Source: Loxodes magnus
Taxonomy: Eukaryota; Ciliophora; Karyorelictea; Loxodida; Loxodidae
Direction of reading: 5' to 3'
NCBI GenBank assembly: GCA_946699065.1
Contig: CAMPDV010001053.1
Coordinates: 1 to 64,000 of the forward strand
DNA length: 64,000 nt
Positions 20,799 through 64,000 of the stretch are shown piece by piece (position 1 is the first letter of the stretch; each line of letters opens with the position of its first letter). The notes below the pieces were generated by a model. That model had not been told where the DNA came from, ran no database searches, and worked only from the letters and a program-made list of their open reading frames with translations. The position numbers and the translations under genes are program-made.

Positions 20799-23038
20799 CT
20801 ATTATTAGCTATTAGTATCTACTTAATTCAATATCCTTCCTAAGTTCCATCTTCTAAAGTTGTAATCTTTTGATTAAGCAGGATATACTTGTGTATTACT
20901 CGATACCAACCATTAGTTGTCCCTAGATAATGATAAACTACCCACACTGTCAGTGTGACCCAATAGTACACATTCACACTATCCATTATTGATATTTCAT
21001 ATTCTTATTGACTTGTCATAAGATCCAGATAAGATATACTTGTTGTTATTCGAGAATATTACCGATAAGACAGAAGAAGTGTGTCCCGATAAGACTTTAG
21101 TACATTGTTATGTTCTTGAGTTCCATAAACGAATAGTATTGTCACCCGATCCAGATATGATGTAAGTGGAATCACTGGATATAGCCACAGATGATACATA
21201 ATGTGTGTGACCACTCATGGTCTTACAGGTACCTGTCTTGACGTCCCATAGTCTCACCGTCTAATCATAACTTCCCGATACGATGAACTCTGAATCACTG
21301 GATATAGCCACAGATCATACTTAATTTGTGTGACCACTCATGGTCTTACAGGTACCTGTCTTGATATTGTAAAGTCTAAGAGTATTATCTGCACTTCCCG
21401 ATACGATGAACTCTGAATCACTGGATATAGCCACAGCATATACCTAATTAGTGTGACCACTCATGGTCTTACAGGTACCTGTCTTGACGTCCCATAGTCT
21501 CACCGTCTAATCATAACTTCCCGATACGATGAACTCTGAATCACTGGATATAGCCACAGATGATACATAACTAGTGTGACCACTCATGGTCTTACAGGTA
21601 CCTTCAGCTATGTTGTAGAGTTTTAAAGTTTTGTCATAAGATCCAGATACTATTAAGTTAGCATCTGAGGAGATGGCGACCGAAGATACTGAGTCTGAGT
21701 GTCCAGTATATATGTGTGGGTGTTCAGAAGAGATTGATGAGAGGTTAGCGTTAGAGAGGTCACAGTTAATAAATTTGGAGTTTCTGAGGTTGGCGAAAGT
21801 TAGATTGGAATTGGAGAAGTTACAGTTTGTGAAGGTGGTGTCCGAAATGTCCGAGTTAGTAAAGTCTATGTTTTGGAAGTTAAGTTGACTGAATTAGAGG
21901 TTTAAGTAATTTAGCATTGTCAAGGCATTTGCTGCTGCTAATTTCATTTTTGGCTGATTCTTAGCTAGATTCAAAATCTATAAAAGATTTTGATGGCTTT
22001 TTTCAGATCTTAGTTAAATTAAATCATAAAGAATCATTTATTTTTGACAAATGCTAACTACATTTAAAGGATTATTCAAGATTGTATTTACATCTAGCTG
22101 CCTGTTTTGAAACTCGCTAAGGATATTTTGAAGATGCTGAATGCTTTCTATTTTTAATTCTTCAAGAGGCTACTTTACGAGTTGAACTGGCTATATTTCG
22201 TGTTGCATTCTTTGCTATTAGATATTCTTCAATTAAACATCTTGTCTTTATACTTAAACTTTGGCTTCTTCTTAGGGCTATTTTTTTATTTAATTTTGAT
22301 TGGCAGACTTTGATTACTCAAAATATTTGCTTATAAAACCAGAGAAGTCTTAAATAATTGACCTTTATTCTTAGTTCATGCTCATGATTTCCTGTAAGAC
22401 TTATAAAGAAACTTCTTAGATTTTTTTATAATTCTAATTAGTTTCTTATTAAGTTAATTCTCTAACACTCTTGATCTTGCTTTACAGTCCTTCATATTGT
22501 TCTACTAACTTATTCAAAGTTTTTAAGCTGTTGCTACATTCTTGAATAGTTGTTCCTTTGCTTGCCTTTATTTACTAATATCTTCTTCATATTGAATTTA
22601 TCTATCTTTAGACTTACTCGATTTGAACTATGCTCGTCTAAAAGATGCTAAAGTCTTTCTGGTACAAAGTCTATGCAACTTATTTCATTATTACACTGAA
22701 GAGCTTTTAGAAATCTGTACACTATTTTATGATACTTAACATCTTTTTCTTTTGTTATTTTGCCTAACTCGATAAGTCTTAAAATAATTACTTCAGATTT
22801 GCTTCATGCTCAAACTTATTTAACTATTACATGAAGTAATCTTATATTTTGAACACTTTCAGATTCTGCTCCTCTATACTAACAAATATTTTATGAATCT
22901 TGCATTTAATTGTATCACTTATTTTAAAAAAATTTTGAATGCATTATGCACAATGAATACAGCCACAACTTAATTTTTTGGATATCTTTGATTTTAGTCG
23001 AATTCTTCTTTGCAACTTTGGCAGATAGTTAAATTCAT
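20799..23038 (-). CDS. RING finger, coiled coil, pentapeptide and WD40 repeat protein
   Basis: ATG at 23,038 begins MNLTICQSCKEEFD, the first half of a RING finger. After a one-base shift at a six-A run (about 22,971-22,976) the frame gives the second half, LSCGCIHCAQC, then CKIH. It then stays open for about 690 codons. Order: RING (about residues 5-60), a long Gln- and Lys-rich coiled coil (about 70-350), a pentapeptide-type segment (FTNSDISDTTFTNCNF, with Asn/Ser-Leu steps), then about seven WD40 repeats. Four WD40 repeats are near-identical 123 bp units with a GTCKTMSGHT motif. Three in-frame TGA codons fall where Trp fits, one being the WD-type site SIRI-TGA-NINN. The frame ends at a cluster TAA TAA TAG (20,807-20,799). 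RING plus WD40 suggests a cytoplasmic ubiquitin-ligase or scaffold role (inference). The shift could be a mutation, a sequence error or ribosomal frameshifting. Confidence 0.82.
20988..21620 (-). repeat. Homogenised 123 bp WD40 units
   Basis: The motif ggtacctg recurs at 21,228, 21,351, 21,474 and 21,597, exactly 123 bp (41 codons) apart, with almost identical sequence between. The flanking WD repeats are more diverged. This indicates recent unit duplication or gene conversion inside the WD40 domain of the gene that contains it. Confidence 0.93.
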
Positions 23039-41825: not shown

Positions 41826-41829
41826 AGTG

Positions 41830-43260: not shown

Positions 43261-43285
43261 ACTGAAGAGACTTATAAATTGACTT

Positions 43286-43337
43286 TTTTAAAGAGATGCG
43301 TTCTATTGTAGGGCTACGCACTCTATAGTAACATTTA
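43286..43337 (+). repeat. Interspersed inverted-repeat element, copy 1
   Basis: aaagagatgcgttctattgt...gctacgcactctatag. It is related to elements at 45,152 and (inverted) 63,436. The ends pair imperfectly (agagatgcgt against acgcactct), so it could form a stem-loop. It lies upstream of copy B. Confidence 0.65.
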
Positions 43338-43339
43338 TT

Positions 43340-44745: not shown

Positions 44746-44779
44746 GCCATAGTTGTTCGAAGGTGAACAACAAGGTCAT

Positions 44780-45045
44780 CTTCATCAGAGGTTGGGGAAT
44801 TTAAGTACCCATAATCGACTTTATGTCTTCCTCTGCTTTGGTTTGACCTCGAGACATAAGATTCTTAGACCTTCGACACTGACTTGGCTTCGTTTATTTT
44901 TAATTCTGGAACGAAAAAGAAATAATATTGCGAGCTTCATCAGAGGTGGGGAATTTAAGTACCCATTATTGACACATGTCGCCCTCTGCTTTGGTGATGC
45001 AATGAGACACAATCCTGCCATGTCCTTGGACCTCCAGCAAGTATT
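44780..45045. repeat. Tandem duplication of about 155 bp
   Basis: ttcatcagaggttggggaat at about 44,783 and ttcatcagaggtggggaatt at about 44,938 each continue into taagtacccat and, further on, cctctgctttgg. The two units are diverged in between. On the minus strand each encodes a GYLNSP motif, one as NGYLNSPPLMK and the other as DYGYLNSPTSDEDDL. Open frames exist on both strands, so the coding sense is unproven. Confidence 0.7.
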
Positions 45046-45149
45046 AAAGATTACGAGTATTCTAAAATTATATCAGTATTGAACATTTTTATTAGTATCT
45101 GATAATTTTATCAGTAACAAACATTCTTGTCAGTATGAAACATTTTTTT

Positions 45150-45193
45150 TAAAGAGCTGCGCACCAACGAGAGTGCTACGCGCTCTATAATCA
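45150..45193 (+). repeat. Interspersed inverted-repeat element, copy 2
   Basis: aaagagctgcgcaccaacga...gtgctacgcgctctataatc. agagctgcgca pairs with tacgcgctct around a short loop. It is the same element as at 43,286 and 63,436 and lies about 165 bp upstream of gag-like copy D. Confidence 0.72.
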
Positions 45194-45357
45194 AATTTAT
45201 TTATTTATTAATTATATAAATTTTAAAATAATAAAGAAAATAATATGAAAATCAAATTATTTTATTTTTTTCTATTAATTAATGAAATAAAGTTTAAAAA
45301 CTATAACTCATTTTATAAAACAGATTGTTTAACTTTTAATATTTTAGAATTAAAAAA

Positions 45358-46210
45358 ATGGAAACAAATCCGGGAATCTAAACCTTAAATTTTAACCTAA
45401 TAGATCAATCTTAAGTCTCAGTTAACTTGCAAGAACCAAGAATTCAAAAAAGATAAATATACTTCTGTTAAGGATTGGGAAATACTGAATTTCCTAGCAA
45501 ACTAAAAAGTGTGAGAAACCTCATGAGCAAGACATTAATTAGCTTTATTCCTTAATTGAGAAAATGAATACAGAAATTTAAACCCTGAAGGCAGAAAACT
45601 AGAATCTTAAGCTTCTTTTGTAAGATAAAAAAAGGAAGATAATGGCTAGGTAAGCTAAGTTTAGTTTTAAATTGAAGCCTTAACTTCCAAATTTGTATTT
45701 ATAGAAAATAACCTAGCAGCAAATCATAGAAAATTGAAGAAGAAGTCCAATTACAAATTAAAAAATACTAACCTCAAACAGATAAGATAGAAATAGTACA
45801 AAAAGTTTAAACACATTAAAAACTTTATTTCAAGTCCTTAATAAAACGTTGCTATTGTTGTCAAAAGACTGGATATTAATGGAGATAATCTCTAAAGTGA
45901 AGAAGAGTATTTGAGCAGCACCAAAAGAATTTGGAACATCAAGAAGACTATATTGAAACTGCTTTGAAGGTATTTATAGAAAGAAGCCAGTATTACTAGA
46001 CTTAAGTGTGACATTACTCAAACAGAATCTTGATAATTAATAGTAACAAAATAAACAACTTAAAAAGGACAACAATGACCATACAATTTATTTAGAGAAG
46101 CTGGAGTAAAATTACAAGAAGATGGAAGAGCAATTCTATTAGCTTATAGAAGAGAAGAAGAATTATCTCAGTTTGAGATTGATTCAGACGAAGATATGTA
46201 AAGTTGAGTG
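45358..46210 (+). pseudogene. Gag-like ORF1 copy D (frame-broken)
   Basis: ATG at 45,358 (METNPGIQTLNF). The frame then changes into a coiled coil, INQLYSLIEKMNTEIQTLKA, and later changes again into KIEEEVQLQIKK and the knuckle CYCCQKTGYQWRQS, where His and the last Cys are replaced. EGIYRKK follows near 45,970. A further coiled coil, YLEKLEQNYKKMEEQFYQLI, at 46,090-46,190 may be its C-terminal part or a separate small ORF. Several frame breaks indicate a pseudogene. Confidence 0.6.
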
Positions 46211-46664
46211 ATGGATATAAAAACTTTTATTTCTTTAATTTTAGGAAGTGTTTCCTCTAATTAAAGTCGATCCTAACCCTTTTATTTAAAATTAAAATTA
46301 AAAATTAATATTTGAGAACAACTTATTTCTCTCCATGCTGTTTAACTTTGAATAGCTGCTTAAACTTCAAGCTGAGATGTCCATTTTGTAATCCAATATC
46401 TATAAGAAAGCGCCTTTGAACGATTATCAGTTTTGATATAATTTAGACTATATTCGTTTATTCAAAATATTGCTCCCGTCAATTTTTTTTGATTAATCGT
46501 AAAAAATTAATAAATTCAATTAGATCTTTTTAATAATTTTTACTTTTTTTAAAACTTTTATAAACATAAAAAATGTATTCAGAAGATAAAATTTACCATT
46601 AAATCAAAAATCTCATTTCTATTAGGATAAATTTATTAATATTATAAAAACAAAGAATATAAAA

Positions 46665-47055
46665 ATGGACGAAATATAGAATTCACTAGTTTTTAATAGT
46701 GACTCTTCTTTAATTAACTCCAAAGAAGCTGCAAATTCATAAGAAAAGCATAGGCAGGAGCACTAAAACCTCCAAACTAAAGATTTGGAGTCACTACAAA
46801 TTAAATAAGTAAACCTAATCATGAATTTATTAGAGTAACTACTTAAAAATTGTAGTCAAAAACCGGAAAACAAATTCATACACGTCCCGCTAAAACGACT
46901 TAGAAACTCTCTTCATCGTGGGTATTAATTATAGCGTATTACGAAAGTGAAATCAACCTATAAACAGATAACAGATTAACCACCTAAAATAGTACCACTA
47001 AAGATACGAAACGATTACCCAAGAAATGTTTCTAAAAATAAGATATTATCCTAGA
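46665..47055 (+). CDS. Unidentified protein with N-terminal SDSSL motif, copy 1
   Basis: ATG at 46,665 starts MDEIQNSLVFNSDSSLINSK. It stays open without any TGA for about 130 codons: SLQIKQVNLIMNLLEQLLKN, then a basic segment, LKRLRNSLHRGYQ, and a run of aat repeats (47,056-47,092). A related N-terminus occurs at 61,585 (FILSDSSLF, then an ESLRN...QL...LI pattern). The frame runs into gag-like copy E on the opposite strand. The coiled-coil sequence after copy E could be the rest of the same gene, in which case copy E would be an insertion or lie in an intron. Function unknown. Confidence 0.55.
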
Positions 47056-47092
47056 TAGTTAATAATAATAATAATAATAATTAATAATAATT
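47056..47092. repeat. aat simple repeat
   Basis: An uninterrupted run of aat triplets followed by taataataattaattata, at the junction between the SDSSL gene and gag-like copy E. Confidence 0.85.
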
Positions 47093-47099
47093 AATTATA

Positions 47100-47825
47100 G
47101 TGATCCCACCTATCAATAAGGTTCGTTACTTTTTAAAGTTTAATAGTTTTGCTAAAATTTCCATTTCCAGTCTTCTTCTGGTCTTCTTCTTGAAGCACAT
47201 ATCTATCTGTGCTGTGTTCTCCTTTTATTATTTTCGTAATCTTGCTTCAATCAATCTTCATTCCAAGCATTTGTTCATTTCTTCTTTGTCCTGCTATAAT
47301 CACGTCTTCTAGAATTTCATGCCCTGCGTACAACTTTCTTCTATAAATTCTTCCTTCGCAGTGCAATATAGTTTACTTATGGTTCTTCATAGCTTTAAAT
47401 TTTCTGCTTTCTGTTTTTATTGGAATTAGAAGCAGTTTCTAACTTTGTGTCCTGGTCTCTTGCAGTATCAACATCGCAGTATTTTCCTATAGGGAATATC
47501 TTTTATTGCAGGCTGTTTCTCCACATCCATAGGATCATTCCCCTGTATATTTTGCAAAAATATGCTTTCAGTTAGTTCTGCGAATTAGTCGAATTTTTTC
47601 TCTAGCTCTTCTATTTTGTTGTTTCTTTTCTATTTATTTTCATTTATCATTTATTCTTATTAATTGTACATCAGGTGCTCTATTTTTCTTTCTAGTTCTT
47701 GAACTGTTCTTAGGAGGTTGAAATTTTCTTATTACAGCAATTGGAGTACTTAAAATATATTTTATTGCTCGTAAGATGAATCCTTTTGAGAAGAGGTTTT
47801 TTACAAGAAGTTTTCCATTTTTCAA
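47100..47825 (-). CDS. Gag-like ORF1 copy E, one frame break
   Basis: The minus strand has a coiled coil, TVQELERKIEHLMYNQQEQM, then NNKIEELEKKFDQFAELTES, then NDPMDVEK. The canonical zinc knuckle, C-TGA-YCKRPGHKVRNC, has TGA at the aromatic position. After AENL a shift of one base leads to HCEGRIYRRKLYAGHEILED and about 60 more residues. The shift site is gaa aat tta, which contains the heptamer aaattta in the register typical of -1 ribosomal slippage; a simple mutation is the simpler explanation. An ATG in frame lies at 47,650, but the coil extends upstream of it. Confidence 0.68.
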
Positions 47826-47869
47826 TTATATAGTTAGAATTCTAAGATATAGTTTAAAATCCTAATGAA

Positions 47870-49445
47870 AATTAAAATAAAGATATCCTTTCTATGGTAA
47901 TAATTCAAATAATCAATATTTAGCTGATCTATAAAGCAAACAACCTTAAAATTAAACTACTGACTTAAGAAATATAAAATAATTAATTAGTCTAATGAAA
48001 ACTTATTTACCTTAGAAATAAAAGAACTTAAACATAATATATAAAGACTAATAGATAAGAACCAATAATTAAATGAAATGCTAATTAATATAAAAACAAA
48101 ATATGAACGAGATATTGAAACATTGATAAGTAACTAAGAAATATCCAAAATATATTATAAAAATTATATAAATAAAATTTATTAGAAATATAAACTATTA
48201 TAGAGCAATTTTTAATCAATCAAATCTTATATATAGCAATATCATAAAATAACTAGTTCATAAAATTACTTAAACAAACTTTTCCACTTATTACAGTAAC
48301 TTAATCGTTTAAACAGATGAAATAATTAGTATAGTTCAAGAAATTTAGATATAATAGAAAAACTAGGAGAATTAAGTCAATTTAAGCGATGAAGATAATC
48401 TAATTAAGAGATTCAAATTGAAGCCAATGCTAATTAAAGCTTTACTTAAGCTTAAATGATAGGAGCAAATATTTCATAATGATAAAACTTTAATAAAATT
48501 AGAAATTTTACTTAAATTGAAACAGATAACTTTCTAAATAAAACTTAGCAGAGATATCAATAAATTATAATAGAATTGAACTAATATTTACTTCAAAAAA
48601 TAGCTCATAAAAATAATAACCGAAATTTAACTCTAAGAGTTATATTCTTAATATTAAAATTTATAAAACTAAAATAAGTTATTTATAGATTAAAAATAGA
48701 AAGCTTAAATGGAAATTTTAGCTTTTAAAATCGAATTAGATAAGTAAAGATAATAAAACTATGAAATAAATATAACTTTTTAAAATTAAATCTAACATAC
48801 AAAAGAATTTAGTAATTAATAGTAATTTTAGAAGAAGTAATATGTAAATGCATAAACTTAGACATTATATGGAAATATTTAAGTAAAAGATTTTATTATC
48901 TAAACAGATAATATAAATAAATAATAAACAGCTTTTTTGTGTCAAAAATTTACTCAAGCAAATATAATCAAGCAAGATAAGTTAATGCAAACTTAAAATA
49001 ATTAATAGGAAGCATCAACTAATACTATTATAACATAACATAGTAACTAATACTGTCAAGTTAAATTGTCACATGAAGATTTTGTTTTACCATAGCATTA
49101 ATATCACTAACTCAACTTAAAATTCATTTGAAGTACCCAAAATATGTAGAAACTTGAGATAAAAATAGAAGAGCTTTAAAAACTTAATTAAAATTTGAAA
49201 AAAGATATATTTAATTATTCTACTAAAAGCTGAAAAAGATTAATTAAACTTAACAGATTTGATTGATGTTATTAATCAGAATTAAACCTTACCTTCCAAT
49301 ATTAATCTTAATATTCTTAAAAGGAAACGTGAAGAAGAAGATAAAATAATTCCACCAGCAAAACGTATGAGTAAACATAATAATAAAAAAGAGTATGATT
49401 AAATAATAAGTTATTTCAATCTGACTAGTCTATAACTTTAAACAT
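47870..49445 (+). CDS. Coiled-coil protein ending in a basic nuclear-localisation-like motif
   Basis: The plus-strand frames are Gln/Lys/Leu/Ile-rich with heptad-like stretches, for example IISIVQEIQIQQ, then NLSDEDNLIKRFKLKPMLIK. Two TGA (LKLK-TGA-QEQ and QQN-TGA-TNI) are read as Trp. The C-terminal part is the clearest, LTDLIDVINQNQTLPSN. It is followed by LKRKREEEDKIIPPAKRM, which looks like a bipartite nuclear localisation signal. No ATG is chosen. It may continue the SDSSL gene beginning at 46,665. Frame continuity over the full length was not proven. Confidence 0.45.
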
Positions 49446-49920
49446 TTATTAAATCAGAAACTTGAAGACGTCCATAGTATGAAATGTGCAATATATAAGG
49501 TATATACTTCACAGTTACTTAAGTTTAGAATAAGGTATATGTGATAGTGTGAAAAGTAAAATTGATATAGATAGAAAGTTACTCTAAAAATATACGACGT
49601 AAGTAATATATATTTTGATAAAATATTTCCATTAACATCCTGAGTATGGAAAAGATTAGTACATATTTAGATTAACCATTAAGGATAGAAGAGTGTCTGC
49701 ATTATTAAAGTGGACTACCTGCAGGAAGTGGATTGTAAATTCTCATAGACGATTATATCATTGACCAGAAAAGAAGGAGTACTCTATATATGCGGGGCTC
49801 AGTAATCTTGTGAACATAAAGAACTAGAGTTAGAATGAGAGGGACTGAGGGTAGCGGATTATTCAATACTAGTGGGTGGAAATTTTTTCAGACATAAATC
49901 CACAAACTCTCACACACTTA
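49446..49920 (+). other. Moderately complex region, possible coding remnant
   Basis: Composition is richer than background from about 49,660 to 49,880. One frame reads RKEGVLYICGAQQSCEHK and ends near LRVADYSILVGG, faintly like a kelch-type repeat. Alternative frames are equally open, and no call is made. Confidence 0.3.
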
Positions 49921-50009
49921 TTCTCTTGCATCACTCCATTCCTATTCATACCCCTCCTTGAAAATTTGCTTTATTCTCTTATGATATTTGCATTTTGGAT
50001 GTCATTTCT

Positions 50010-50265
50010 TAAACTTATGGAAATTTAAAAAATAGGAGAGAGGTCTGATGGCTACTTCGAGTTAAAATGGATCTAAAATTAGCAGGAAATTGCATGACTT
50101 GAACAGAAGGATATGGCTGCTCTTAATAGATTGAATCCTCAAACAGGATGAAGAAAGTCTTGTAGAATTTTTAAAGAAATAACACATGAAAAAATACTGA
50201 AATTAAGATTATCGTTATGAAAGAAAACTACTAAAACTTTCGTCTGAAAGTTATAGCCACAAAAA
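50010..50265 (+). other. Short coding-like patch
   Basis: From ATG 50,052 one frame reads MATSSQNGSKISRKLHDLNR and then an Ile/Leu-rich part with one TGA. A second frame reads LEQKDMAALNRLNPQTG. Unidentified. Confidence 0.3.
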
Positions 50266-50269
50266 AATA

Positions 50270-51640
50270 TGAAAAATAAGTTTAACTTCCTTAAGTAAAA
50301 AATTAAAATACACTAAAGTTTAAACATTATTTCATTATTTTTGTATTATATATATTTTATCTTCTCATAAATTCAGCTGATTCATTTTAATTTTAATCTT
50401 CATTAAATAGGTATTTAAAATAAAATATTTTTAATTATAACTGTAATAATAAATATCATTATAATGATTCAAATAAATACTTTAGTTTGAATATTAAAAA
50501 TTATTTGCAAGCTAATTTATTTAATACCTAAATAAATATAAAGGGAATTAATTATATATATTATTTTTAACTTTTATATGCTTTTAACATTCAACTTTGT
50601 TTTTACTTGTTCTCATTATTCAGTTTCATATAATAAAAATAATTTTTCAGTAACTTAGTAATTAAAGAAATAATGATTTACTAATAAAACTAAATTTTTT
50701 ATATAATTTGGTTAAAATTATTTTTATTATACAATGTGATGAAAAAATAAAATATATTGTATGATGAATAAGATGTAAAATGATATAGTTTATTAGTAAT
50801 TAAAAAAAGTATTTTATATTTAGGAAATATTTAAAGGAAAAGTGAAGAATTATGGTAAAATTATAGAACTGAAACATTTAAAAAAATTATTTAATTAAAT
50901 AGATCCTTTATAATGTATTTTTTATTGAAAATCACTATCTTAAAGCTAAGAAAAAGGTTAGAAATAAGATTATGAAAGGATAAATTAACTATATACTAAG
51001 ATTATTATAGTGACTTTACATGTTTCTGCTAGACAAAATGAGCAACAAAAATTATTAAAAAAAGATATTATAGATTATAGTTAAAATTATAATTAAATGA
51101 TTTATTTTAAAAACAAAATATAGAGTTAAGCCCTTTTATAAGATTATTAAATTTGAGTTATTAAAATAAATGTATAAAATTTAGTTTATATTTCATTGCT
51201 TTGAATACTTCAAAATATTTTATTTAATTATCTATTAGAAATATTTTAGAAATACTTTTATCTAAAATGTATTATTTAATTTAAAATAAATTAATTCTTT
51301 TCTTAATTTGATTTTTATTTATTTAGAATAAATTTAATTTTTCAGTTTCTTTAAAATTTTTAATTTAAAAGTCTTTTATAGATATAAATTTTTAAATAAA
51401 TTAATTATATAATTAATATATAAAAAATGTATTATTCTATTTTCAATAAAATCCAACAAATTTTAGCTTTGGATGATATTAAAAATTTCTAATTTTTTCT
51501 TTTAATTTAAGAAGTAAATAAATGAGCTAGATATATTTTTTACATACTATATTAAGTTTTTACTTTTTTATAATTTTAAGTAATGTAGAATTATATAATA
51601 TATGATTATTCAATATTAATAATATAAATTAATATGTCTT
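50270..51640. other. AT-rich stretch, no gene recognised
   Basis: Low complexity, no motif seen on either strand. Confidence 0.6.
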
Positions 51641-51679
51641 TATTTTTTTTCATATAGGTAATAAAACTGTTTATTTATA

Positions 51680-52590
51680 TTTTTATTATCAATCCTACTT
51701 TACTTATTGCTCTTATTTTTCTACTTGTTTTTCTTCAACTACTTCATCTTTGTAGTAGTTTATCATTTCACTAGAGAATTAAATTCAAAAAGATTAAATT
51801 ATGCTGCTCACAATCGAAGTCTCCCTCTGTTGTTAGACTAGTTATGCCTCCTAGCTCCACAGGTTCTATTTTTCTCTTTAGTCTGTATATTGAACCATTT
51901 TCGCTACGTAAAATTTCGGTTTTCCTTTTCCAAATTTATTATTACACTTATTTTCTTCACGTTTATTCTTTGATTCTTCTAAATAGTTTACAGTTCTTTC
52001 AAAGATCCACTAGCTATGGCAATAATACCAGAATTTCTTAATATTACTTCTTTCTCAGTTATTTTTGCTGCTTAATTGATCCACTCAATCTCCATTTTAT
52101 CGATGCTTCGATTTTAGTCTAGTACAATCTGCTTACTTTAAAGGTTTTCTAATTCTAGAGAAAAATTTTGATCTATCAGCTTTGATATGTATCTTCTAAA
52201 CTTAAGAGTTCATCTGGCTAAAATTATTCTCTTTGTAATTTCAAAGGGCGTCTAGTTCTCTCTCTTAGTTTTCATCCTGATGTCTAAAATCTCTTGCAGC
52301 CCTTGCTATATATTTTAGAATATTTTTCATTCTCCTTATGAAATTTCCTAACCTCTTCCTGGAGGCTTAGGATTATTTTGATGAGCTGCTCCATGTTATT
52401 TGGCCAAAAGGGTTAAACTCCGATACTTCCTGGTGTAGAGCTGACTTCAAATATTTCCTAGATATCTCCTCCGATTTTGACATTGCAGTATGTGCCATTT
52501 TTAATAGCCTTTTTTGTTCCTCAATCTTTGCTATGTGCAAGGCCACTGATTCTTAGTTGCAGGAAAGAATCCCTTTCTGAAGCCTGACAT
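51680..52590 (-). pseudogene. Gag-like ORF1 copy G (degenerate)
   Basis: The minus strand starts with ALHIAKIEEQKRLLKMAHTA, then NPFGQ. The conserved coil LSLQEEVRKFHKENEKYS lies in a frame offset by one base and is restored afterwards. ENQERELDAL-TGA-NYKEN aligns with NQERELQAY-TGG-N of copy B. The knuckle region YYCHSQ-TGG-IF matches copy B's YYCKSK-TGA-HL but has lost the remaining ligands. The tail is Gln/Lys/Glu-rich. Two compensating indels and a dead zinc knuckle mark it as decayed, but it is valuable for the TGA/TGG comparison. Confidence 0.62.
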
Positions 52591-52599
52591 TTTTAAAAT

Positions 52600-52935
52600 A
52601 TTACTATTTAAAAATATTTAAAATAATTAACTACTTTTTATTAAAAAAGATATTCAGTTTTATTATCAATTTGCATAATTAAAAGAAGACGTAAAAATTA
52701 GTTACTATTAGTTTTTTTCTTCAATATTAAATTTAAAATAAAATAAAAGAAATAGCATGCTTTAGTATCATAAATAAATAGAGGATAAATTTAAGGTTAT
52801 TGATAACTAAAAGTTCTTATTTAAATAAATAATGAACAATAATTAAAAAAGATAACTTTCATATTTATAAATATTTTTAGTTTTTTAATTATTTTAGAAT
52901 TTTTTTTCGGTAAAATATAAATTATATCTAAGATA
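52600..52935. other. AT-rich spacer
   Basis: No feature recognised between gag-like copy G and the kinase remnant. Confidence 0.55.
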
Positions 52936-52939
52936 GATT

Positions 52940-53650
52940 AAGAGTTCGTCATTTAAGGTGTTGATCTTTAAAAAGTGAAGGAGATAACCAAAGATGGATT
53001 TGGGATGGTGTTCTAAGGTCTATGGAGAGAATATATAGAAGTGACTATTAAATAACTTTATAATAAATATATATCAGAAAACACAATGGAAGGATTTGAG
53101 TAAGAGGATAATAACATAAAAAATGAATAGTCTAAATGTGATTTTGTATATGAATATTGTATTTCTACGATAAATTTAGTAATTTAGTGGCTTCTCTATA
53201 CACTATTTAATTTATTAATGAGGAGGGGGAATTAACATGGGAAATGAGATATAGAATAATTTTAGGTATAGTATTAGGATTGGACTATATGCATAAGAAA
53301 AATGTAATTAATAGGGATTTAAAGAGAAACAATATATTGTTGGATATCAACTTTATAGCTAAATTAATGCTTTTGGATTATTGAGGGTGATTACTGAATC
53401 AACTTTATATTATAAAAGTAAGTCGTTGATAATATTCGCTTGTTAGCTCCGGAGTGAAAGAACTTGAGGCCGAAGTATAGTAAGTAATCTGATATATATG
53501 CTTTGGGTATGATGCTATGGAAAATAGCATCGAGAAGAAGTCCCTACTAGTAAGCTGAGGATTAGTTTATCTTGAAGGTTAGAGGGAGAAAATTCCAAAG
53601 AGTTTTCAACAGAGTTTTAAGGAATGTATAGAAATAAGGATGTTAATAGC
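52940..53650 (+). pseudogene. Protein kinase (tyrosine-kinase-like group), frame-broken
   Basis: Kinase landmarks occur in the right order but in different frames. A glycine-rich loop, DGFGMVFQGLW, is followed by the VAIK-type lysine in VTIKQL (from 52,984). A hinge and helix follow, EEGELTWEMRYRI, then GLDYMHKKNVINRDLKRNN. There HRD is changed to Asn-Arg-Asp, with its Lys and Asn present. A DFG region reads NAFGLLRVITEST, with the DFG Asp lost, and then LLAPE-TGA-KNL and KYSKQSDIYALGMMLWKIAS. At least one base is missing before NAFG. Lost HRD His and DFG Asp plus frame breaks argue for a pseudogene. The hinge and SDIYALGMMLW resemble TKL or tyrosine kinases. TGA after APE reads as Trp in frame. 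Confidence 0.7.
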
Positions 53651-53849
53651 ATATTCCTAGTAATCGATAAAATTAAAATGCTTATAAATGCATTTAAAAG
53701 GTTAAATAAATTTAAAAATGATAAACATGTAAAACAACAGATATTTAAAACTTAGAAAGAAAATTTGAATAGCATTAAATTAAAGAAAGCACACAAGTTA
53801 TCCAGTAAATTAAATTTAAGCAAAATAGGAAATTTTATAAGTTTAAAGA

Positions 53850-53995
53850 TACTGTATCTCTTGATATACAGTCTAAAATCTAAAGGGAGTCTAAGTTTTT
53901 TTTATCAGAAGCATTAACAAGTGACCAAAAATAAATCTTTTCGAGAAGTTAGGATAAGACAATAAAGATCTAAGACTTCTAAACTACAAAAATTA
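53850..53995 (+). pseudogene. Possible WD-repeat remnant after the kinase
   Basis: One frame reads FFLSEALTSDQKQIFSRS and then QDKTIKIQDFQT, close to the WD-repeat ending S-x-D-x-T-I-K-I-W-D, with Gln at the Trp site. Only one unit is seen. It may be the tail of a kinase-WD40 gene. Confidence 0.35.
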
Positions 53996-54476
53996 GTGTA
54001 TTTACATAATAAAATTTTTTTATAATCAGGTGACAGATAAAAATTTATTAGATAACAAAAATTTAAATAATTAAAACTAGAACATCTAAATGATTTTTAT
54101 CCACTTCTATAAACTTTAAAATTTACTTCTTTTACTCTGAATAAAAATTATTTTAATTATTAAAATAAGATTAGGAAAATTTTACTTAAATCATTCAAAT
54201 GTTCTTTAAAAAATGTAATCCATTAAATAATATCTAATAAATAGATAATCTAGAAATTTTCAAAGAAACATATCCTTCAAATTCTAAACATTAAAATATC
54301 TCCTAGATATATAAAATGGTAGAAGGGTTCAAGAAAGGCTTCTATACCACCTCCTAAAAAGGGGAGAGAAAGTAAGAACCCTATCTTTAACTCACAGATC
54401 TTCTTCCTAGAAATAATCTTCTTCTCAAAACCTTCAAGAATAATAGACTCTAGGAACTTCCAGACCAACCTAAAAA

Positions 54477-55210
54477 ATGGGACAAAAGCGCCAAAATGCT
54501 ACCCCGATGATACCAACTGAAGAGAAAGGACCTAGAAAGGTGCTGGAGACGCAAGAAGCAAAGTCTTGCGAGAGTTTTCGATGCCACATTTCCAGGAAGA
54601 ACAGGCATAAATTTTAGTCGCATTCTCTGACCTGAAGGAGGAAGTAAAGAGGCTACGATTAGAGAATAGAACTCTAAAAAATCAAGTTACTGAGCTCAAG
54701 GAATGGAAAGAAAGCTTCTGGGAAGTCTACAATCGAGAACGAAACACTTTCTTCAGGGAAATGGGATTGCTGCAGCAGAGAACAACTGTGCTTGAAGAGA
54801 ACAGCAAGTAGCAACAATAGTAGGAATCCAAAGTTAGGACAATTCAAGATCCAATAGACATAGAAGAAGCTACTAATTTACCGAGGAGTCCAGAAAAGAA
54901 ATGAATTAGGAATAAACCAAGATGCTTTTTATGCAAACAAACTGGACATAAATATAGACAATGTTAGAAATTGAAATTAATTAAATAATAGTACTGGAAT
55001 AGAAAATAATAAGAAAAATAATAGTACTAATATTAGGATAAGATTAGACGAGAATTCTGTAACTAATTTTATCCGTCAGGAGGTCAAATCTACAAACCGA
55101 AGTGGTACACAATCCAAGGCGACTGAAGAAAGAGTTCTGAAGGGAGCTGGTTCCAGCCAGGTTATCAAACTGGTCCTGTGAACACGAGGTTGAAAGTCCT
55201 CCAAGTTCAC
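54477..55210 (+). CDS. Gag-like ORF1 copy C, one frame break
   Basis: ATG at 54,477 begins MGQKRQNATPMIPTEEKGPR. Near 54,580 the frame shifts by one base into MPHFQEEQAQILVAFSDLKE, then a long coiled coil (RLRLENRTLKNQVTELKEWK). An acidic linker, DPIDIEEATNLPRSPEKK, comes before a TGA and then a complete zinc knuckle, CFLCKQTGHKYRQC (TGC at 54,923). FYPSGGQIYKPKWYTIQGD, another TGA read through, and SEGSWFQPGYQTGP follow. The C-terminus probably lies near the TAA at 55,208. It has the best-preserved knuckle in the window. The GC content is higher than in its neighbours, suggesting a younger insertion (inference). Confidence 0.72.
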
Positions 55211-55461
55211 TAAACTCCAATTTAAACTTTTTAATTTAGTAATATATATATAAAATATCTCCTGCAAAATATTATAAATTATTCTAGAACCTTAAAAAGA
55301 GTTGCTCTTTATTAAATTGTTCAAGAAGTTAATTTCAAAATAATAGAAAGATTTAAAGTCTATCAGGAAACAATAACTTATTTCTGATTTAAGACAAAAG
55401 ATGCTAAAAAATCAAAGTTTAATTAATTTGAATCATAAATAATAATAATGTAAACTAAATG

Positions 55462-56250
55462 TTAAGAGTTTTGGAGTTCTTCGGGATTCCAACCGATTTC
55501 GCTCCGCCTTTTTTTTAACGTGGATGTATACCACGGCCTTTTTTTGAATGTGGGTGACTACCACAATGAATTTTCCATGTTACCACTAAATAATTTCTAT
55601 TTATAAATTCCTGAGTCGGTTATTCAAAGTTTGTTTAACATCCTTCATGTTTTTATTTCTTCTCTTTTTTTCAATTTTTATCATTTTTAACAATTTTTTA
55701 ATAAGTGATATTTCGACCTACAACATCAACAATTTTTTGTCTATTTTTTTTTATTCAACTAAGGCAAAACTAATTTTTCTATTTGTTCTATTCTTTTAAT
55801 TAAACTTTTATCAACATTTTATTCTATATTTATTTCTTAATCTTTTGCTTAAGAAGGGAGGACTTCAATACTCATATTTACCCCTTGTTTAAAATTATTT
55901 TAAGACTGAGTATAGAGCTATTGTTCTGTCACAATATTGTTTTATATAAGCTATTTCCTAAGAATTAATAGTTCGTTATTTTGATCCTCAATGTTATTCA
56001 TAAGCTCTCTAATTCTTTCTCCTTGATTATATGTTTCTTCTTCATATTTAGAAATTAATTTTTTCATCTTTTCCATTTCAATTGAAAGCGAAGTGCTCTC
56101 ATTAACTTGTCCAACCATTACTTTGCCTTCTGAAGAGGAGCTTGATAAGTGTTCCATTGATTTCTACTTCTTCTCTAGTTCTTTGTTAGCTCTTCTTCTT
56201 GCGTTCCTTGCCTAATTTTTAGATAGTCGAATATTCTATTCCATTTCCAT
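55462..56250 (-). CDS. Gag-like ORF1 copy I, complete 263-codon frame
   Basis: ATG at 56,250 (MEMEQNIRLSKNQARNARRR) opens a single frame of 263 codons to a TAA at 55,462. It has a basic start and a Ser-rich patch, then a coiled coil, IEMEKMKKLISKYEEETYNQ to ELMNNIEDQNNELLIL. A Gln-rich linker and the knuckle C-TGA-CCRSKYHLLKNC follow. Downstream are SGIYKQK and GWNPEELQNS. Seven TGA codons fall inside the frame, one at the aromatic position of the knuckle as in copy E. With no frame break, this and copy B are the least damaged copies. The 3' limit is uncertain because TAA is also a Gln codon here. Confidence 0.74.
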
Positions 56251-56639
56251 TTTTTTTTGAATCATAAATTTTACAAAATAAGTTATTTTGTTGTTTTCAC
56301 ATCAGAGAAAAAAAATGTATAAGAAAATATTTAATCTCAAAAATAAGCAAGAAAGTTTAATCAAAAATATAAAATATGTAATTGAACTGGTTTTTCAATA
56401 ATATACTTTTTAGTAGAAAAATATCATAGGATGAAGCAAAAAAAATTAAATGAAAATCAATTTATAAACTTACAGCATTTGGAGACTAATCGTAGAGATA
56501 TTTAAAATATTACATATCATATTTAAGTTTCGAGAAAAATTATCAATTATGATTATCCTACTAGTATTTAATAAAATCAATTTGATTTTCTTTTGATACT
56601 TTATTAACTAAATTTTTTCCATATTTAAAAGAAGTTAGA

Positions 56640-56960
56640 TAGTTTTAACTTTTAATAACTGTGACCATAGTGAATTTTTTTCTTCTTTAATTTTTCCTTA
56701 GATCCCACTATTATCGTTATTCTTAAATATGGTTTAAGCTTTAATTGTGGGTTATTTACTCTGTGTCTTGTGCTTGTTGTATATTAAATACAATAATTTA
56801 TGCACTTTTTTAGATTTTCTTCTAATACATATCAAAAAGAGTTTTTTATTGCAATAGAATATTATACGTCTTTTTTTCTTTGCTTCAATTACCTTACCTT
56901 CTCGACGTCCATTTCTCTTTGCTTTACGTTGAATTGCCTATCCTCTTATAGAGAGGTCAT
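56640..56960 (-). CDS. Small basic coiled-coil ORF
   Basis: ATG at 56,960 (MTSLQEDRQFNVKQREMDVE) gives a frame of about 107 codons with KVRQLKQRKKDVQ, NSF-TGA-YVLEENLKKC and KPYLRITIIVGSKEKLKKKK. It is very basic, with Gln from TAA. It lies upstream of gag-like copy I on the same strand. A competing frame also reads well over the first 60 codons. Family not recognised. Confidence 0.42.
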
Positions 56961-56964
56961 CCAT

Positions 56965-57665
56965 TACCGTAGTAGTACCATTGCTTCTTAGGATTTTTTA
57001 TTGTTTTTTAATATGTAAATGGGTTTTTGGACTTATACATTTATTCCAACTCCATAAGTATACCAAACTAGAGAACATATCCTTTCAGCCGTAACTGTGT
57101 CTCAAGGTTACATAACTTCTGCTACAGATCTCTCTTGGGTGATGGATAGAAGCCTATCTTAGCATTAATTATTTTTCATTTTAGGTTAAATTTACTAACT
57201 AATGTTAATACTACAATGTTTTTAGAATTTCAATTATTTAAAATAATTTTTTTATCTATAAATATTATCCCCGATTTTTATATTTTCTTACTATGCTTTA
57301 ATATATAAAAATGAATGATATAAATAGTACCTATTATTTTTACTTTTTACTATCTAATTTGCTCTAGTTTTTTTTTAGCTTTTATATTTTTAGGTTTGCA
57401 TATTAAAAATAATTATTTTCCATTTTTCTTAATCCAATAACATTTTATAATTCCTACTTAAAATTTTTTTTTCTTGATTTAAAAAATGTTTAACATTTTT
57501 ATATTTACTATACATTAAATAATTATTATTTTATTACAGTTAATTAATTTAAGCTAAACTTTTATTTCGTTAGTATTTTTATTTATTTAATTTTTTTAAT
57601 AAATAATAATTTATTAATGTGTATTCGCATTTATTTGCTTTATCACGTATTAGTTTGCAAAAAGT
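56965..57665. other. T-rich DNA, no clear gene
   Basis: Positions 57,000-57,160 are somewhat richer and may be the upstream part of the minus-strand ORF ending at 56,640. The rest is low complexity. Confidence 0.5.
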
Positions 57666-57669
57666 CTCT

Positions 57670-58110
57670 AAAAATCATTCTAAAACTCATTAATCATCCA
57701 TTTCTTCTCTAGGTTTGTATTCTTAATTATATATCTATGGTTGCTAATCTATCCTTTCTTTACCCCTGGTATTTTAATTTAATCTCAGTCCTTTGTAAAA
57801 AAAATTTTTGTTTCTCTTTTTTGAGATTTACAATTTGCTAGAATATCTAGTCTCCACCAATCATTTTTTCAAGTATAGATCACCTTCAGATGTTCAATTA
57901 ATCTTGATTAGGTTTTTTTCTTAATTTTTATTTTCAAAGCTTTTAATTTTTTATCTCCAACAACTTTTTTGCATACCCGAGCCTTCTACAGAATCAGCAC
58001 ATAATTACTATTCTTTTTTATACTTGATTGATTATTCCATTTTTTCATGTTTGATTAATATTTAAATTCGATTGTTCAATTTCCATTGATCATACTTAAC
58101 TTTACTCGTA
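57670..58110 (-). pseudogene. Gag-like ORF1 copy J (degenerate)
   Basis: The minus strand carries C-TGA-FCRRLGYAKKL (TGC at 57,999-57,997), which aligns with C-TGA-YCKRPGHKVRNC of copy E. His and the last Cys are replaced by Tyr and Leu. A Lys/Gln-rich tail follows with MIGGDQIFQQ, a possible relic of the G-x-I-Y motif. The upstream coil is weak. The TGA at the aromatic knuckle position is the third such case in the window. Confidence 0.5.
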
Positions 58111-58569
58111 ATTTTTAAGTAGTTTTATTTAATTGATATTTCGAACCTTTTAATTTTTTGATTAAATAGATGCATTGAAGCTTTTAAAACAATTCTATAT
58201 TCAGTATTTTATTATCATTTTAAAGCGAGTTAATTTTTAAATATATGCTGCTTATTTTTTGAATTTATTGCTACACTGCATAATTTAGTTTTCTTCAACC
58301 TATAACGAATAAATCTCAATTAAGGTATATTATTGTCAGTTAGGAGATTTATTTTAGTTGAATTGCTTCTTAGGGTCCTTTTTTTAATATTAACCTTTTA
58401 ATTTATTAAAAGTAAAAAGCATTAGTATTGGCTAAGCTAACTTTAAAATATAATTGCATTTTTTTGACTTAATTTATAGAATTGTTTTTTATTATAAAAA
58501 TATAAATTTTACATTTTAAAGCTTAATCTCATCTTTTTACTTTTTAATTAATAATTTTTTAAAGTTTAA

Positions 58570-60132
58570 AATTAAATTTATTGATGATCTCTCTTTCAAT
58601 TCTAAAACATCATTTCACGAGGAAATTACAAAGGCTATCTTCTTTCTTCTTCGGAACGTTAAAAATGGTATTAGTTTTGTTTCTTCTCTTTCTCATCTAC
58701 TTCAGTCAAAAATGGCCCTTGGGAATTTACTTAAATATCTTTTAATTTAATATTCGTTCTTTTTTCCCTAAATTATAGCCTTTTTTCTTTTGCTTATTCA
58801 AAATCAGTATATTATACATTTTAAAAATCTTTAGCTGACTTTATTGGATTTAATGGATCTACAAAAAAGAAAACTATTAGCTATCTCTCAGCCATGGTTT
58901 AGCCATTATTTTTAATTTCACTAAGCATATGTAAATGCTAAGTGTTATCGAAAACAATTAAATCATTTTAATCAGTCTAAAGCTCTACGCAATCCCATTA
59001 TTCTTCTTTTTCATTATATTTTCTAATATTTCCTACTCTTAAAGAATTTTGACTCTGTTTTATTATTCCCGATACTTAGTAATAGTAAATTGCTACTGCT
59101 ATAATGTTTTCATCCAGTCCTTCTTTATGTCATCTTCCTGTATATGTTTAATTAGGCTATAATTAATAAGATAAACTTTTTACTATTACTTATAAGTTCG
59201 AACCTTCTTAGAACTAATATTAAGGAGAAAAGAGTTAGAAGTAAGGAAGACATTGAGTTAGAAGTTTACATGTTATATCGTAAATTTGCTGGTTTTCAGG
59301 TTTAATTCCAGGGATTTAAGAAGTAGAAATACAATTCCCATTTTGAATTTAGAAATCAGCAGGAACCCAGCTTCAGTGATACTTAGGAATATTTAAAGAA
59401 GGATCTATAATATCCTAAATTCTTCCATCGCCTCTTCCTAAAAGCTTACCGTCTCTAAAATCAGTTATATTTTATCTAAAGATATTAAACTATTTTTCTA
59501 TTTCGATTCTCTAATCTTCTTATGAAAAGTTTTTCAGATAAACTGCCACAAGATCATTACTACTTAATTCTTAACGGTTTGATATCTGTTCTGAAGGTAA
59601 GAAATGAGATTTAATGAATTGTTTTGTTTGAGACTTCACAATTATAGTATTTTATTCGCTTACATGAAAAACAGTTCTAATTTGCTATTAAACGCTGGAC
59701 TAAGTATTCTCCTTTATCATTTACTATTACTCAGAACTTTATATTTTCTGCTCTTTAGATTATTTTCTATTGTCACTTTTAGATACAAAGTAACCCATTA
59801 TAATATTTAAAAAATTAACTTCAAAGCAATAATTTTTATGTTGATATTAATTCTAATAGAAAATTTTAATTTAAAGCATCTAAATATTTTATTTTAAACG
59901 GAAATAGAATAATTAATTAATTAGCGCCAAGTCACCTTTAATAGGTTTATCACTAACTAATTATTGATGTTATTATAAGTGTTCTCACTAACGAGAACTC
60001 TCGTACAAGTAAGGTTTGTCTTCTTAGTTCATTCCTCCTTATCCATGGTGTCATATAGTGAGAGGCTTCTTACAATGCAGTATAAACTTCATCAGATTAT
60101 CTATAAGTTCCTCCAAATATGGCTTCATCCAT
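58570..60132 (-). CDS. DUF4246-family protein
   Basis: ATG at 60,132 begins MDEAIFGGTYRQSDEVYTAL and continues TPWIRRNELRRQTLLV, like the N-terminus of the family. The region 59,700-59,930 is unclear and may hold an intron. From about 59,600 to 58,570 one unbroken frame runs. It has IQDIIDPSLNI, then WVPADFQIQNG, KPENQQIYDITCKLLTQCLP, YTGR-TGA-HKEGLDENIIA, VAIYYYQVSG, FDNTQHLHML and LIVFFFVDPLNPIKSAKD, then a charged tail. These match in order the DUF4246 landmarks (IDPSL, YINNLHP-like, G-S-W-H-x-E-G, IYYY, NTLQH, LVFFLVDP). TGA replaces the invariant Trp before His. The length of about 500 residues fits. The molecular function of the family is not established. A 73 nt GT-AG stretch (59,663-59,591) could be an intron or coding; both readings rejoin. 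Confidence 0.85.
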
Positions 60133-60139
60133 ATTGTTT

Positions 60140-61300
60140 AGTATATAATAAATAATAAGTATTATACTTAATGTATAACGATAAACTTTATTCGAGTATA
60201 ATTTGCTCTATTTTATGAAACTTTAATTTTACTTAAATAATCTTATTTTAAACTTAACTCTTATAAATAAAATCTAAATTAATACAATTTTGTATTTTGT
60301 AATCTAAAAAGGAGCTTCCTTATCAGATTTAACTTTTTCATTATAAAGAAATTAAAAATAAATCATTATTATAATCTTTTTTAGACAAGATCAAATTAAG
60401 ATAATTGGTAAAAATGAAAGATTTAATAGATTATGTTAGGTTTAAGTTAGATTTTAGATCTAAATATAAATAATAAAGATTCTTAAACTTTTAAAAATTA
60501 TTAAAAGAAATTACCCTTTTCGTGAAAAAGATTAATCAAAAACTTTTAAATAGTTTATTTATAATGCATATAATTAACTAATGTATTAATATCAAAAAAA
60601 AGGGATTTCTTTATTTTTTGTTTATTTAAAAATAAATTATTGTCTCTGTTATGTCTAAAAATTTTCTAATTAATCTAAACATTATACTTTTTCTGGGTAA
60701 TTCAATGTTTCATAAATATTTCTAAATATCTTATTATTAACGAAAAGCTTCATACATCAAAAGGTTAAAATTTTTACTAAGTTTATCTTAGAAAAATAAT
60801 TGTTTAAACTTTTTACTAATTTAAATCTTTATTTATTAAAGATAATTAAAAAATTCTTCCATATCAATCCAAAATTTAAACTTTTAGTACATTTCATTGC
60901 ACTTAGTTAGAAATTTAAAATTATGTGATTTTCAATCACGTTAGGATTTATTAAAGTTTAGATTTATTTTATTATAAAATAAAATTTTAAATAAAGTTAC
61001 TTCAAAATGGATATACTATACATTAATACACTAATAAGTAAATAATAATCTTAGTTACTTTATTTATCTTTCTAAATATGAAAATTGCTAATTTTAAATT
61101 TCTTTTTTCTTTTCATTTCATTAAATAAAATTAATATAGAAAAAAAGAAAAAAAATCTTATATCAACATTTTTTATTATTTTTGCTAATTATTTATTTAG
61201 TTTTATTAATTCGGATAAAAATAAAAGATAGATAAACTTTTTATATTTATAACAAATCAACTACAAAATATTTTTTAATATATTAATAAAATAAAATTTA
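60140..61300. other. AT-rich stretch, no gene recognised
   Basis: Promoter-side DNA of the DUF4246 gene, followed by plain low-complexity sequence. No motif identified. Confidence 0.55.
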
Positions 61301-61308
61301 AACTAAAA

Positions 61309-61496
61309 ATGCTTTTGACGGCTTCTTTTTTCAGGAATTGCTTCCTTCATTATAGACGTTAGTAAATTTTTTTTAGTTGTTTCTTGATCTTGTCTTGATC
61401 TCATCTTCTTTCTTCAATTATCCCTATTTTCTACTCATCTTTAATTACTTCCTTTTTTGCTTTCTCCATTTCTAGAATCTCAAGTCTTCTCGTCAT
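61309..61496 (-). CDS. Small charged coiled-coil ORF
   Basis: ATG at 61,496 gives MTRRLEILEMEKAKKEVIKD, then IGIIEERR, a TGA (Trp), DQDKIKKQLKKIYQRLQ, a second TGA, and RKQFLKKEAVKS, about 62 codons. It is strongly amphipathic and richer in G and C than its surroundings. It lies head-to-head with the SDSSL gene copy 2 starting at 61,585. Function unknown. Confidence 0.5.
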
Positions 61497-61584
61497 TAGT
61501 TTCTTGTGAAATATTTGATTTATAAATCTAAATATTCAAATTTAAACCTTGAAAATGAGTTTACATATTCTTGATCATAAAAAA

Positions 61585-63085
61585 ATGGAGGAAGAAATAA
61601 ATTCGCAAGAATTTATTCTTAGCGACTCTTCTTTATTTTGAAATAAATAATTGCTATCTAAAAGGATTAGCATAGGCAAGTATTTATTACACTAAAGGAA
61701 TAGATTTAGACTATATTTAGCTATAGAGAGCTTAAGAAATTATTAACTTGTTAAGAGATTGATTAAGAAACTGCAACTAGTAACCAAATAAATAAATACC
61801 TTCGTATTCTTTTAAAATAACTTATCGTAGCTCTAAACACGGACAGTTATCGTAGAAAGCTTTAAAATAATAGAAGTATTTCTATAGGAAAATAAATATT
61901 TTACCATCTTAGATCACAAAATATATTAAAAGCATGTATATAACTAAGATATAGAATCTTCTAAAGAACTAGATATCTAAAAGATATTAAGATTACTAAA
62001 GATATGCTTTCAAATAATTAATAGAGCTAAGTCTGAAATAATTATAAGGAATTGTAATTTAATACTTTAAACTATTTTCGAAATTAACTTAAAAGTATTT
62101 CTTATTATAAAGTAAATAGACAAAACTAGTAAAACGAAATAATTACCAGAGAACAACTATATAATAATAATAAATCTAGCTTAAATAATATTAGCATTTA
62201 TTAAATAATGATTAAGTATGAAGTTTAGAAAATGATTAAAAAAATAAATAGAACTTTGATTAAAGTTTATTACTATAATGATAATAAAAATAATAATAAA
62301 TTAAGTTGGTTAGAATATAATTAATACATGAGTTTGATCTAGCTTAGCAATAATTAAGAAAATCATGCTCAATTTTAAACTAATTTGTAAGAATAAGATT
62401 TAACAGGAATTAAAGATTTAGGTATGCAATTTAAACTTAAATTTAGTGTTTAGAATTAATAAAAAACTAAAGGTGAATTTATTCCAAATAAAAACTAAAA
62501 CTTAGTCCAAAGATTTTATAATTAAGAGATTAAAGAAAAAAATAAGATTAATCAAAAGAAGAATTTATAGATATAACATTCAATTTGATTTTAATTAAGC
62601 TTTTAAATACCCAGTTTAAACTGAAACAAATTTTTATAAAAATGATTTTGGAACTAAAACTGAAATTACCAACTAATAACTATGTCTTTTCTTTTAAGAG
62701 TTATAAAAGCTAGGGTAAAATGAATTTAAAATGTAAGAAGCCTATAATGATTTGAATATTCAATATTCGTAATTGATAAAAGATTATGAGTGCGAAGTTG
62801 AACATAAGCTTGATATTTGGGCAAGATTATCTGAACTTTAGAAAAAAAAGAAAGAAGATATGGCTAAGTCAATTTTCAAATAATAAGAATAAAATTAAAC
62901 TAGTTAAACTATTTAGTTTAGAGAATTATATAACTAATGATAAATGGTAAGAGAAATTGAAAATAAGCATAACTTAATTAAGCATTTTTGAGTCCAGCAT
63001 AACAAAATTTTTATCTGTAAAATATTGATATTGAAGAGTTATAAAAGAAATATAATTTTAAAAGCGATTAATTTATTAAATGATT
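61585..63085 (+). CDS. Coiled-coil protein with N-terminal SDSSL motif, copy 2 (frame-broken)
   Basis: ATG at 61,585 starts MEEEINSQEFILSDSSLF followed by TGA, matching MDEIQNSLVFNSDSSL of the gene at 46,665. The following 150 codons need at least one frame change to keep the similarity (IESLRN, QLVKRLI). From about 62,560 a strong frame appears: YPVQTETNFYKNDFGTKTEI, then FFQELQKLGQNEFKMQEAYN and IQYSQLIKDYECEVEHKLDI, then ELQKKKKEDMAKSI and ELYNQ-TGA-QMVREIENKH. The C-terminal half is a confident coiled coil. Function unknown. The two-copy relation suggests a duplicated gene or another mobile family. Confidence 0.52.
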
Positions 63086-63435
63086 ATTATCTAAGCAATG
63101 ATAAAAGCTGAATCTATTACAAATATAGAAATTAGATATATTACTTTGTCTTGGAGATTGAATCATAAGATGGAAATTCAATATCAATAGAATAGATAGA
63201 TAATTATTATAAGAATATTAATTTACTTTATTCATTATATATGCTATAGAAATACAATACAGTTAACTCCATTCTTACTTCATTTTAAATTTAAAATTGC
63301 CAACAAGTTTGCTGCATTTATAACACAGAACTTAAAGGAGAATTGAATGAAAATATTTAAAATTAGCTCACTGTTATAAATTTAAAATTGAAACAAAAAA
63401 TTTACTAGTTTCTATAAAAATTTGATAAATCAATA

Positions 63436-63481
63436 AGATTATAGAGCGTGTAATACCTCAATGGCACGTAGCTCTTGAATA
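63436..63481 (-). repeat. Interspersed inverted-repeat element, copy 3
   Basis: In minus-strand orientation: caagagctacgtgccattga...ttacacgctctataatc, related to the elements at 43,286 and 45,150. It overlaps the end of a minus-strand coding-like frame (63,490-63,725), in which it would read IQELRAIEVLHALQS. Confidence 0.65.
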
Positions 63482-63489
63482 AAGAATTT

Positions 63490-63725
63490 TTAAGTCATAA
63501 AATTATTTGCTGAAGTCTTCCACAGTGCAAAATTTCCCTGTTTGTCTTTTCTCTATAAACCGTGATCGGAATGCTTCCTAAGAAACCTTAATATTTGACA
63601 TCTTTCTTCATTAACGTTACAATGCTTCTTCAGTATTGTCTTTTTTTTGCTCCTACCAAGCCTCTAGTTCTATTTTTCAACCATGGATACTTCCTAGTAT
63701 CAGATCTTAAGTAAATCTCAGTTGG
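63490..63725 (-). CDS. Unidentified coding-like region
   Basis: The minus strand from about 63,725 reads SMVEKQNQRLGRSKKKTILK, then KHCNVNEERCQILRFLRKHS and GNFALWKTSANNFMTQ, with ATG at 63,683 and no TGA after it up to 63,490. It continues into the inverted-repeat element. Complexity is clearly above background. It is basic and has no recognised family. Confidence 0.45.
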
Positions 63726-63739
63726 AGGATTGCTCCGCT

Positions 63740-64000
63740 CTATTTTAAAATATAATTAAATTTTTTTTAAATTCAGATATTTAAAATTCCAGTGTTTTCT
63801 ATTTTCTTTAAATTAAACTCATTTTAAAACTGTTTCAACTCTCTTATACTTAATATCTTAAGAGTTTTTACTCTATTTTTCCTATTAGAATTTAATTAAA
63901 AATTAAGCTAAATAATTTAATAAAAGTTTTAATTTAAGTACAAGAATAGATTATTATCTATTTACTTATAAATAATTTTAAGTAAAATGCTTTATTTTTT
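63740..64000. other. AT-rich end of window
   Basis: Nothing recognised. Confidence 0.55.

Follow-up and report, generated by a model that had tools for sequence, protein, structure and literature searches.

Known context-dependent codes in ciliates

Some ciliates are described as using codes in which UGA stands for either tryptophan or termination depending on its context, with UAA and UAG (collectively UAR) being sense codons. The two genera for which this was set out together are Parduczia and Condylostoma (PMC4967479); Parduczia is reported to possess an all-sense code, in which UGA makes up 0.120% of the codons (PMC4967479). The code of Loxodes is likewise described as context-dependent and corresponds to table 27 (PMC11441545). 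The same account describes its 3' UTRs as short and AT-rich, with UGA and UAA being depleted from the coding sequence over the ~20 codons ahead of the stop (PMC11441545). A broader survey of ciliates lists karyorelicts as using UGA as the stop and UAR as glutamine codons, and gives UGA as the sole stop as the commonest of the variant codes (26 of 46; PMC6935857).

The locus considered here lies in a 64-kb stretch of DNA, which was analysed as a whole and is hereafter called the window. It is like the karyorelict systems using table 27 (Loxodes magnus and Parduczia sp.), as far as these have been described, in having sense UAA and UAG, an interior UGA apparently read as tryptophan, and a final UGA in AT-rich sequence. 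We propose, with a probability of about 80%, that it represents an ordinary ciliate gene under the context-dependent karyorelict code of table 27, whose product is a distant relative of the DUF4246 proteins. Under this proposal, UAA and UAG would be decoded as glutamine and interior UGAs as tryptophan, with a UGA near the end of the mRNA terminating translation.

An open frame with all three standard stop codons in its interior

With TAA and TAG taken as glutamine and TGA as tryptophan (table 27), the minus strand displays an open frame of 400 codons (59798-58599). It starts with a methionine at 59798, calls for no intron and shows no frameshift across its entire length; together with its probable TGA stop, the gene spans 58596..59798. 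A preliminary description of this DNA had placed the gene at 58570..59650. A gene is indeed present there, with limits that make it slightly longer. The same description had reported the string YTGR-TGA-HKEG with its TGA at 59132-59130 of the minus strand, and had placed 59453, 59132 and 58706 in a single frame; both statements were borne out when the sequence was read and the frame computed.

The interior of the gene contains 29 TAA, 13 TAG and 2 TGA codons among the 400, as against 22.6, 7.1 and 6.3, respectively, expected from its own position-specific base composition. By this comparison, TAA and TAG are not avoided and TGA is just mildly rare; TAA and TAG are plainly sense codons in this gene. 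The plus strand over 58055-59617 carries a 520-codon open reading frame under table 6, antisense to the gene. It has no Pfam match up to an E-value of 1 and was set aside as a gene, being taken as a product of chance.

Relationship to the DUF4246 family

The gene had been labeled a member of DUF4246, with a comparison of its table-27 translation to the Pfam model PF14033 being suggested as a check. The frame proved open in that translation, yet a Pfam scan of the 400-residue protein yielded no PF14033 row even up to an E-value of 10, and the protein does not reach Pfam's curated cut-off for membership in the family. The read-through frame and the 400-residue protein returned a sub-threshold match to Nuc_deoxyri_tr3 alone. 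Protein-sequence searches started from the protein gave no matches, nor did a search of the PDB by sequence.

Real DUF4246 relatives were fetched using a bait, namely a DUF4246-like sequence, which Pfam assigns to PF14033. The best 120 of the 5883 proteins found in this way, which are mostly fungal, close to the bait and hence of limited diversity, provided a profile that was searched against the six frames of the 64-kb window with every TGA rendered as X. The gene emerged as the top match in the window (E = 2.5e-6), with the next, unrelated match being at 0.43. The masked protein scored 17.8 bits, as against at most 6.0 bits for its shuffled versions (487 of 500 shuffles scored). The W-H-x-E-G block and the neighbouring conserved blocks of DUF4246 are present in the gene, with the LQVIVK block also being common to it and the family. 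The gene is 18-25% identical to 49 aligned relatives, and its 400 residues compare with 501-719 in the best 120 of the 5883. Thus, the family label stands as a distant resemblance brought out by the TGA-masked profile, on which Pfam's own model is silent; judged by its sequence, we take the gene to be distantly related to DUF4246, a relationship that goes unreported in Pfam. The literature searched yielded no papers on DUF4246, which does not make the gene remarkable.

A structure model of the 400-residue protein has a mean pLDDT of 62 (59 over residues 221-230), and a fold prediction without an alignment, with a mean pLDDT of 35, is unusable. The Foldseek matches obtained from the former, weak model are 2OG oxygenases with low TM-scores. 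They point weakly to the protein perhaps being a 2-oxoglutarate/Fe(II)-oxygenase-like enzyme. The sequence suggests His-x-Glu...His as the presumed Fe(II)/2OG ligands, and the TGA-coded tryptophan would immediately precede the His-x-Glu presumed to bind the metal.

UGA as tryptophan

The TGA at 59130..59132 (minus strand) is codon 223 and falls within the W-H-x-E-G block. Its column is tryptophan in 120 of 120 DUF4246 proteins (the best 120 of 5883), and the adjoining G, H, E and G agree as well. Among the 20 residues tried at this site, tryptophan scored highest (24.6 bits), compared with 21.7 for glycine, 20.0 for phenylalanine and 17.8 for X. The claim that this TGA occupies the invariant tryptophan of the family is upheld by both the aligned block and the scoring. 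Columns that are at least 90% tryptophan account for only 6 of the 380 aligned positions of the gene; hence, a chance placement of a TGA in one of them is unlikely. The gene itself has tryptophan in two of these six, namely the TGG at residue 144 and the TGA at residue 223, with the remaining four being N, E, F and D. Given these four, it is the W-H-x-E-G block that carries the evidence from within the gene.

A second interior TGA, missing from the preliminary description, is found at residue 142 (59373..59375, minus strand) in the context YH-TGA-SWVPAD, and would also be read as tryptophan under table 27. Its profile column contains 117 phenylalanines, 2 tyrosines and 1 gap among the 120, and the scoring is indifferent, with tryptophan not being singled out. 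When both interior TGAs were replaced jointly, tryptophan came top by a small margin (24.3 bits, as against 23.6 for phenylalanine and 23.5 for tyrosine). In sum, the alignment supports the reading of the TGA at 59132-59130 as tryptophan. No tRNA-Trp was reported within the 64-kb window.

A second gene of the window, at 20907..22001 on the minus strand, codes for WD40 repeats (Pfam WD40, E = 6.4e-70; best PDB match 2ymu_A, E = 3.5e-130), with pentapeptide repeats directly upstream (Pfam Pentapeptide, E = 3.5e-08). One of its TGAs (20997..20999, minus strand; SIRI-TGA-NIN) lies at the place of the tryptophan in a WD dipeptide. This place is tryptophan in all 10 PDB alignments that reach it among the 11 listed; the query had W for TGA and was therefore not blind, with the flanks fixing the alignment. 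In the five other listed repeats of the gene that show this place, it is occupied by TGG (three) or TAC (two). Another TGA (21315..21317, minus strand; GHTNQV-TGA-SVAIS) is at a variable place, which is tryptophan in 3 of the 11 PDB alignments listed, all three to 2ymu, and serine (three times), tyrosine, leucine and glycine in six other repeats of the gene. UGA seems to stand for tryptophan inside genes, as table 27 has it, both in the DUF4246 column (120/120) and at the WD40 place (10/10 of the alignments reaching it). The WD40 frame has further TGAs beyond the stretch, at 22589, 20762 and 20741. The larger region 20907-23018 (minus strand) is a single frame that combines a Cys-rich start, the pentapeptide repeats and the WD40 repeats, some of these repeats being similar 123-bp copies.

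Across the DUF4246-like gene and the WD40 stretch, 4 of the 10 tryptophan codons are TGA, which amounts to 4 TGA in 765 codons (0.5%), as against the 0.120% of Parduczia (PMC4967479), in what is a tiny sample. Such a share of the tryptophan codons, being much larger than the low UGA usage described for Parduczia and Condylostoma would suggest, might speak for a ciliate lineage that is so far missing from those known to have UGA as both tryptophan and stop, and in which the reassignment is further advanced and UGA still terminates. We regard this as unlikely. Very unlikely, in our view, is a decayed gene in which UGA is the only stop, UAA and UAG are glutamine and the interior TGAs are true stops. 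The code that it presupposes is the commonest variant in the ciliate survey (26/46; PMC6935857), and a kinase-like stretch elsewhere in the window does not stay within a single frame and is possibly a pseudogene. Nevertheless, the 400 codons run without a frameshift and end sharply, and the two best-tested TGAs occupy the tryptophan places of two unrelated genes.

UAA and UAG as probable glutamine codons

The TAA at residue 203 (59190..59192, minus strand), in the LQVIVK block, sits in a column that is glutamine in 120 of 120 relatives; scored singly, it gives 37.4 bits for glutamine, compared with 34.0 for lysine and 33.6 for glutamate. Over the 8 UAR sites of the well-aligned core, glutamine is the top of the 20 residues with 41.5 bits (asparagine 39.2, glutamate 37.8, X 33.2). 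This latter test is post hoc, having been run after the whole-gene test and with other settings (null2 off), and is mostly driven by residue 203. In the whole-gene test, for which a large part of the gene aligns poorly to the profile, all 42 UAR sites were set to one residue: glutamine came 12th of 20 (24.3 bits), with serine at 32.0, glutamate at 25.0 and serine/threonine being favoured. For the UAG sites alone, glutamine came 8th of 20. The earlier assignment of TAA and TAG to glutamine thus holds as far as their being sense is concerned. Glutamine itself is less strongly supported, with the invariant column and the 8-site core speaking for it and its 12th rank over the 42 sites against it. 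We consider UAR likely to be glutamine, mainly on the strength of that one column and the published codes.

These scores also bear on a code like that of Blastocrithidia, which is translation table 31. In the version described for such a system (PMC12153298), UAA and UAG are glutamate, UGA is tryptophan and UAA also acts as a stop. It accommodates UGA as tryptophan equally well; moreover, several of the UAR columns are mostly glutamate or aspartate in the relatives, and glutamate stands slightly above glutamine over the 42 sites. Against this, the invariant glutamine column holds a TAA, the 8 core sites put glutamine above glutamate (albeit mostly from one site) and the probable end of the gene is a TGA, leaving this the least probable of the readings considered here.

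Other features of the window

Pfam six-frame scans under table 27 recovered the WD40 gene in one frame from 20001-25000, kinase fragments only from 52001-60000 and nothing from 38001-52000 and 60001-64000. Ten long table-6 open reading frames compared with Pfam gave a single row, below its cut-off. The protein kinase fragments, at ~52990-53640 on the plus strand, are distributed over more than one frame, which may reflect short introns, indels in the assembly or decay into a pseudogene. A site therein, LAPE-TGA-K, was considered as a further test of the code and rejected: it is histidine in 4 of the 5 PDB alignments listed, with the fifth falling short, and the frames shift. A tRNA-like gene at 30514-30580 (plus strand; Rfam, 46.3 bits) shows acceptor, D and T arms, with just 15 bases, as read by eye, for the anticodon arm and the variable loop. 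It is called as tRNA-Pyl(cta) by ARAGORN on a loose setting, presumably resembles tRNA-Leu and is probably a truncated pseudogene. Positions 1-18339 of the window are made up of tandem repeats (~18 kb), with 91-bp units (131 copies) giving way to 80-bp units (~75 copies), and show a strong negative GC skew. These repeats, along with the AT-richness, recall the genome of Loxodes magnus, which is described as repeat-rich (PMC11441545).

UGA as a probable terminator

The TGA at 58596..58598 (minus strand) is probably a real terminator. The GC content is 27.9% over the 400 codons and 11.7% in the 60 bases past this codon, and it is because of this fall right after it that we take it as the stop; the next in-frame TGA, at 58217, is ~380 bases beyond. 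The drop from 28% to 12% matches the short, AT-rich type of 3' UTR described for Loxodes, with the coding GC of L. magnus being given as 33.5%, as against the 27.9% of the gene (PMC11441545). The 177 codons upstream of the last TGA are free of TGA, but a TAA and a TAG occur 10 and 2 codons before it, respectively; the former contrasts with the UAA depletion over ~20 codons described for Loxodes (PMC11441545).

Either of these two codons could be the stop under the Condylostoma code (table 28), which has been published for C. magnum (PMC4967479) and agrees with table 27 in the sense meanings of all three codons, with UAA, UAG and UGA all being able to terminate near the end of the mRNA. Thus, the gene cannot by itself separate the two tables. 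The composition boundary that fits the TGA at 58598-58596 and the long repeats recalling Loxodes weigh weakly against table 28. We consider table 28 improbable, and retain the karyorelict code of table 27 as the preferred reading. Accordingly worded, UGA seems to be both tryptophan and stop in one gene, in which UAA and UAG are sense. The preliminary description had all three standard stops as sense in a single gene; this is right for the interior TAA, TAG and TGA codons, with the TGA at 58598-58596 probably being a true stop. It made no mention of this role of UGA in the same gene, or of such codes having been published.

Conclusions

A code of this kind has already been described in some ciliates; hence, the find is real and correctly read, and not new. 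The gene adds an example rather than a principle. Genes of this type can escape standard searches, as is seen from the DUF4246-like gene going unreported by Pfam. Codes in which all codons can be sense test how ribosomes separate tryptophan from stop at one and the same word. The gene offers a neat example of this, with a UGA for tryptophan beside the presumed catalytic site and a probable UGA stop 178 codons on.
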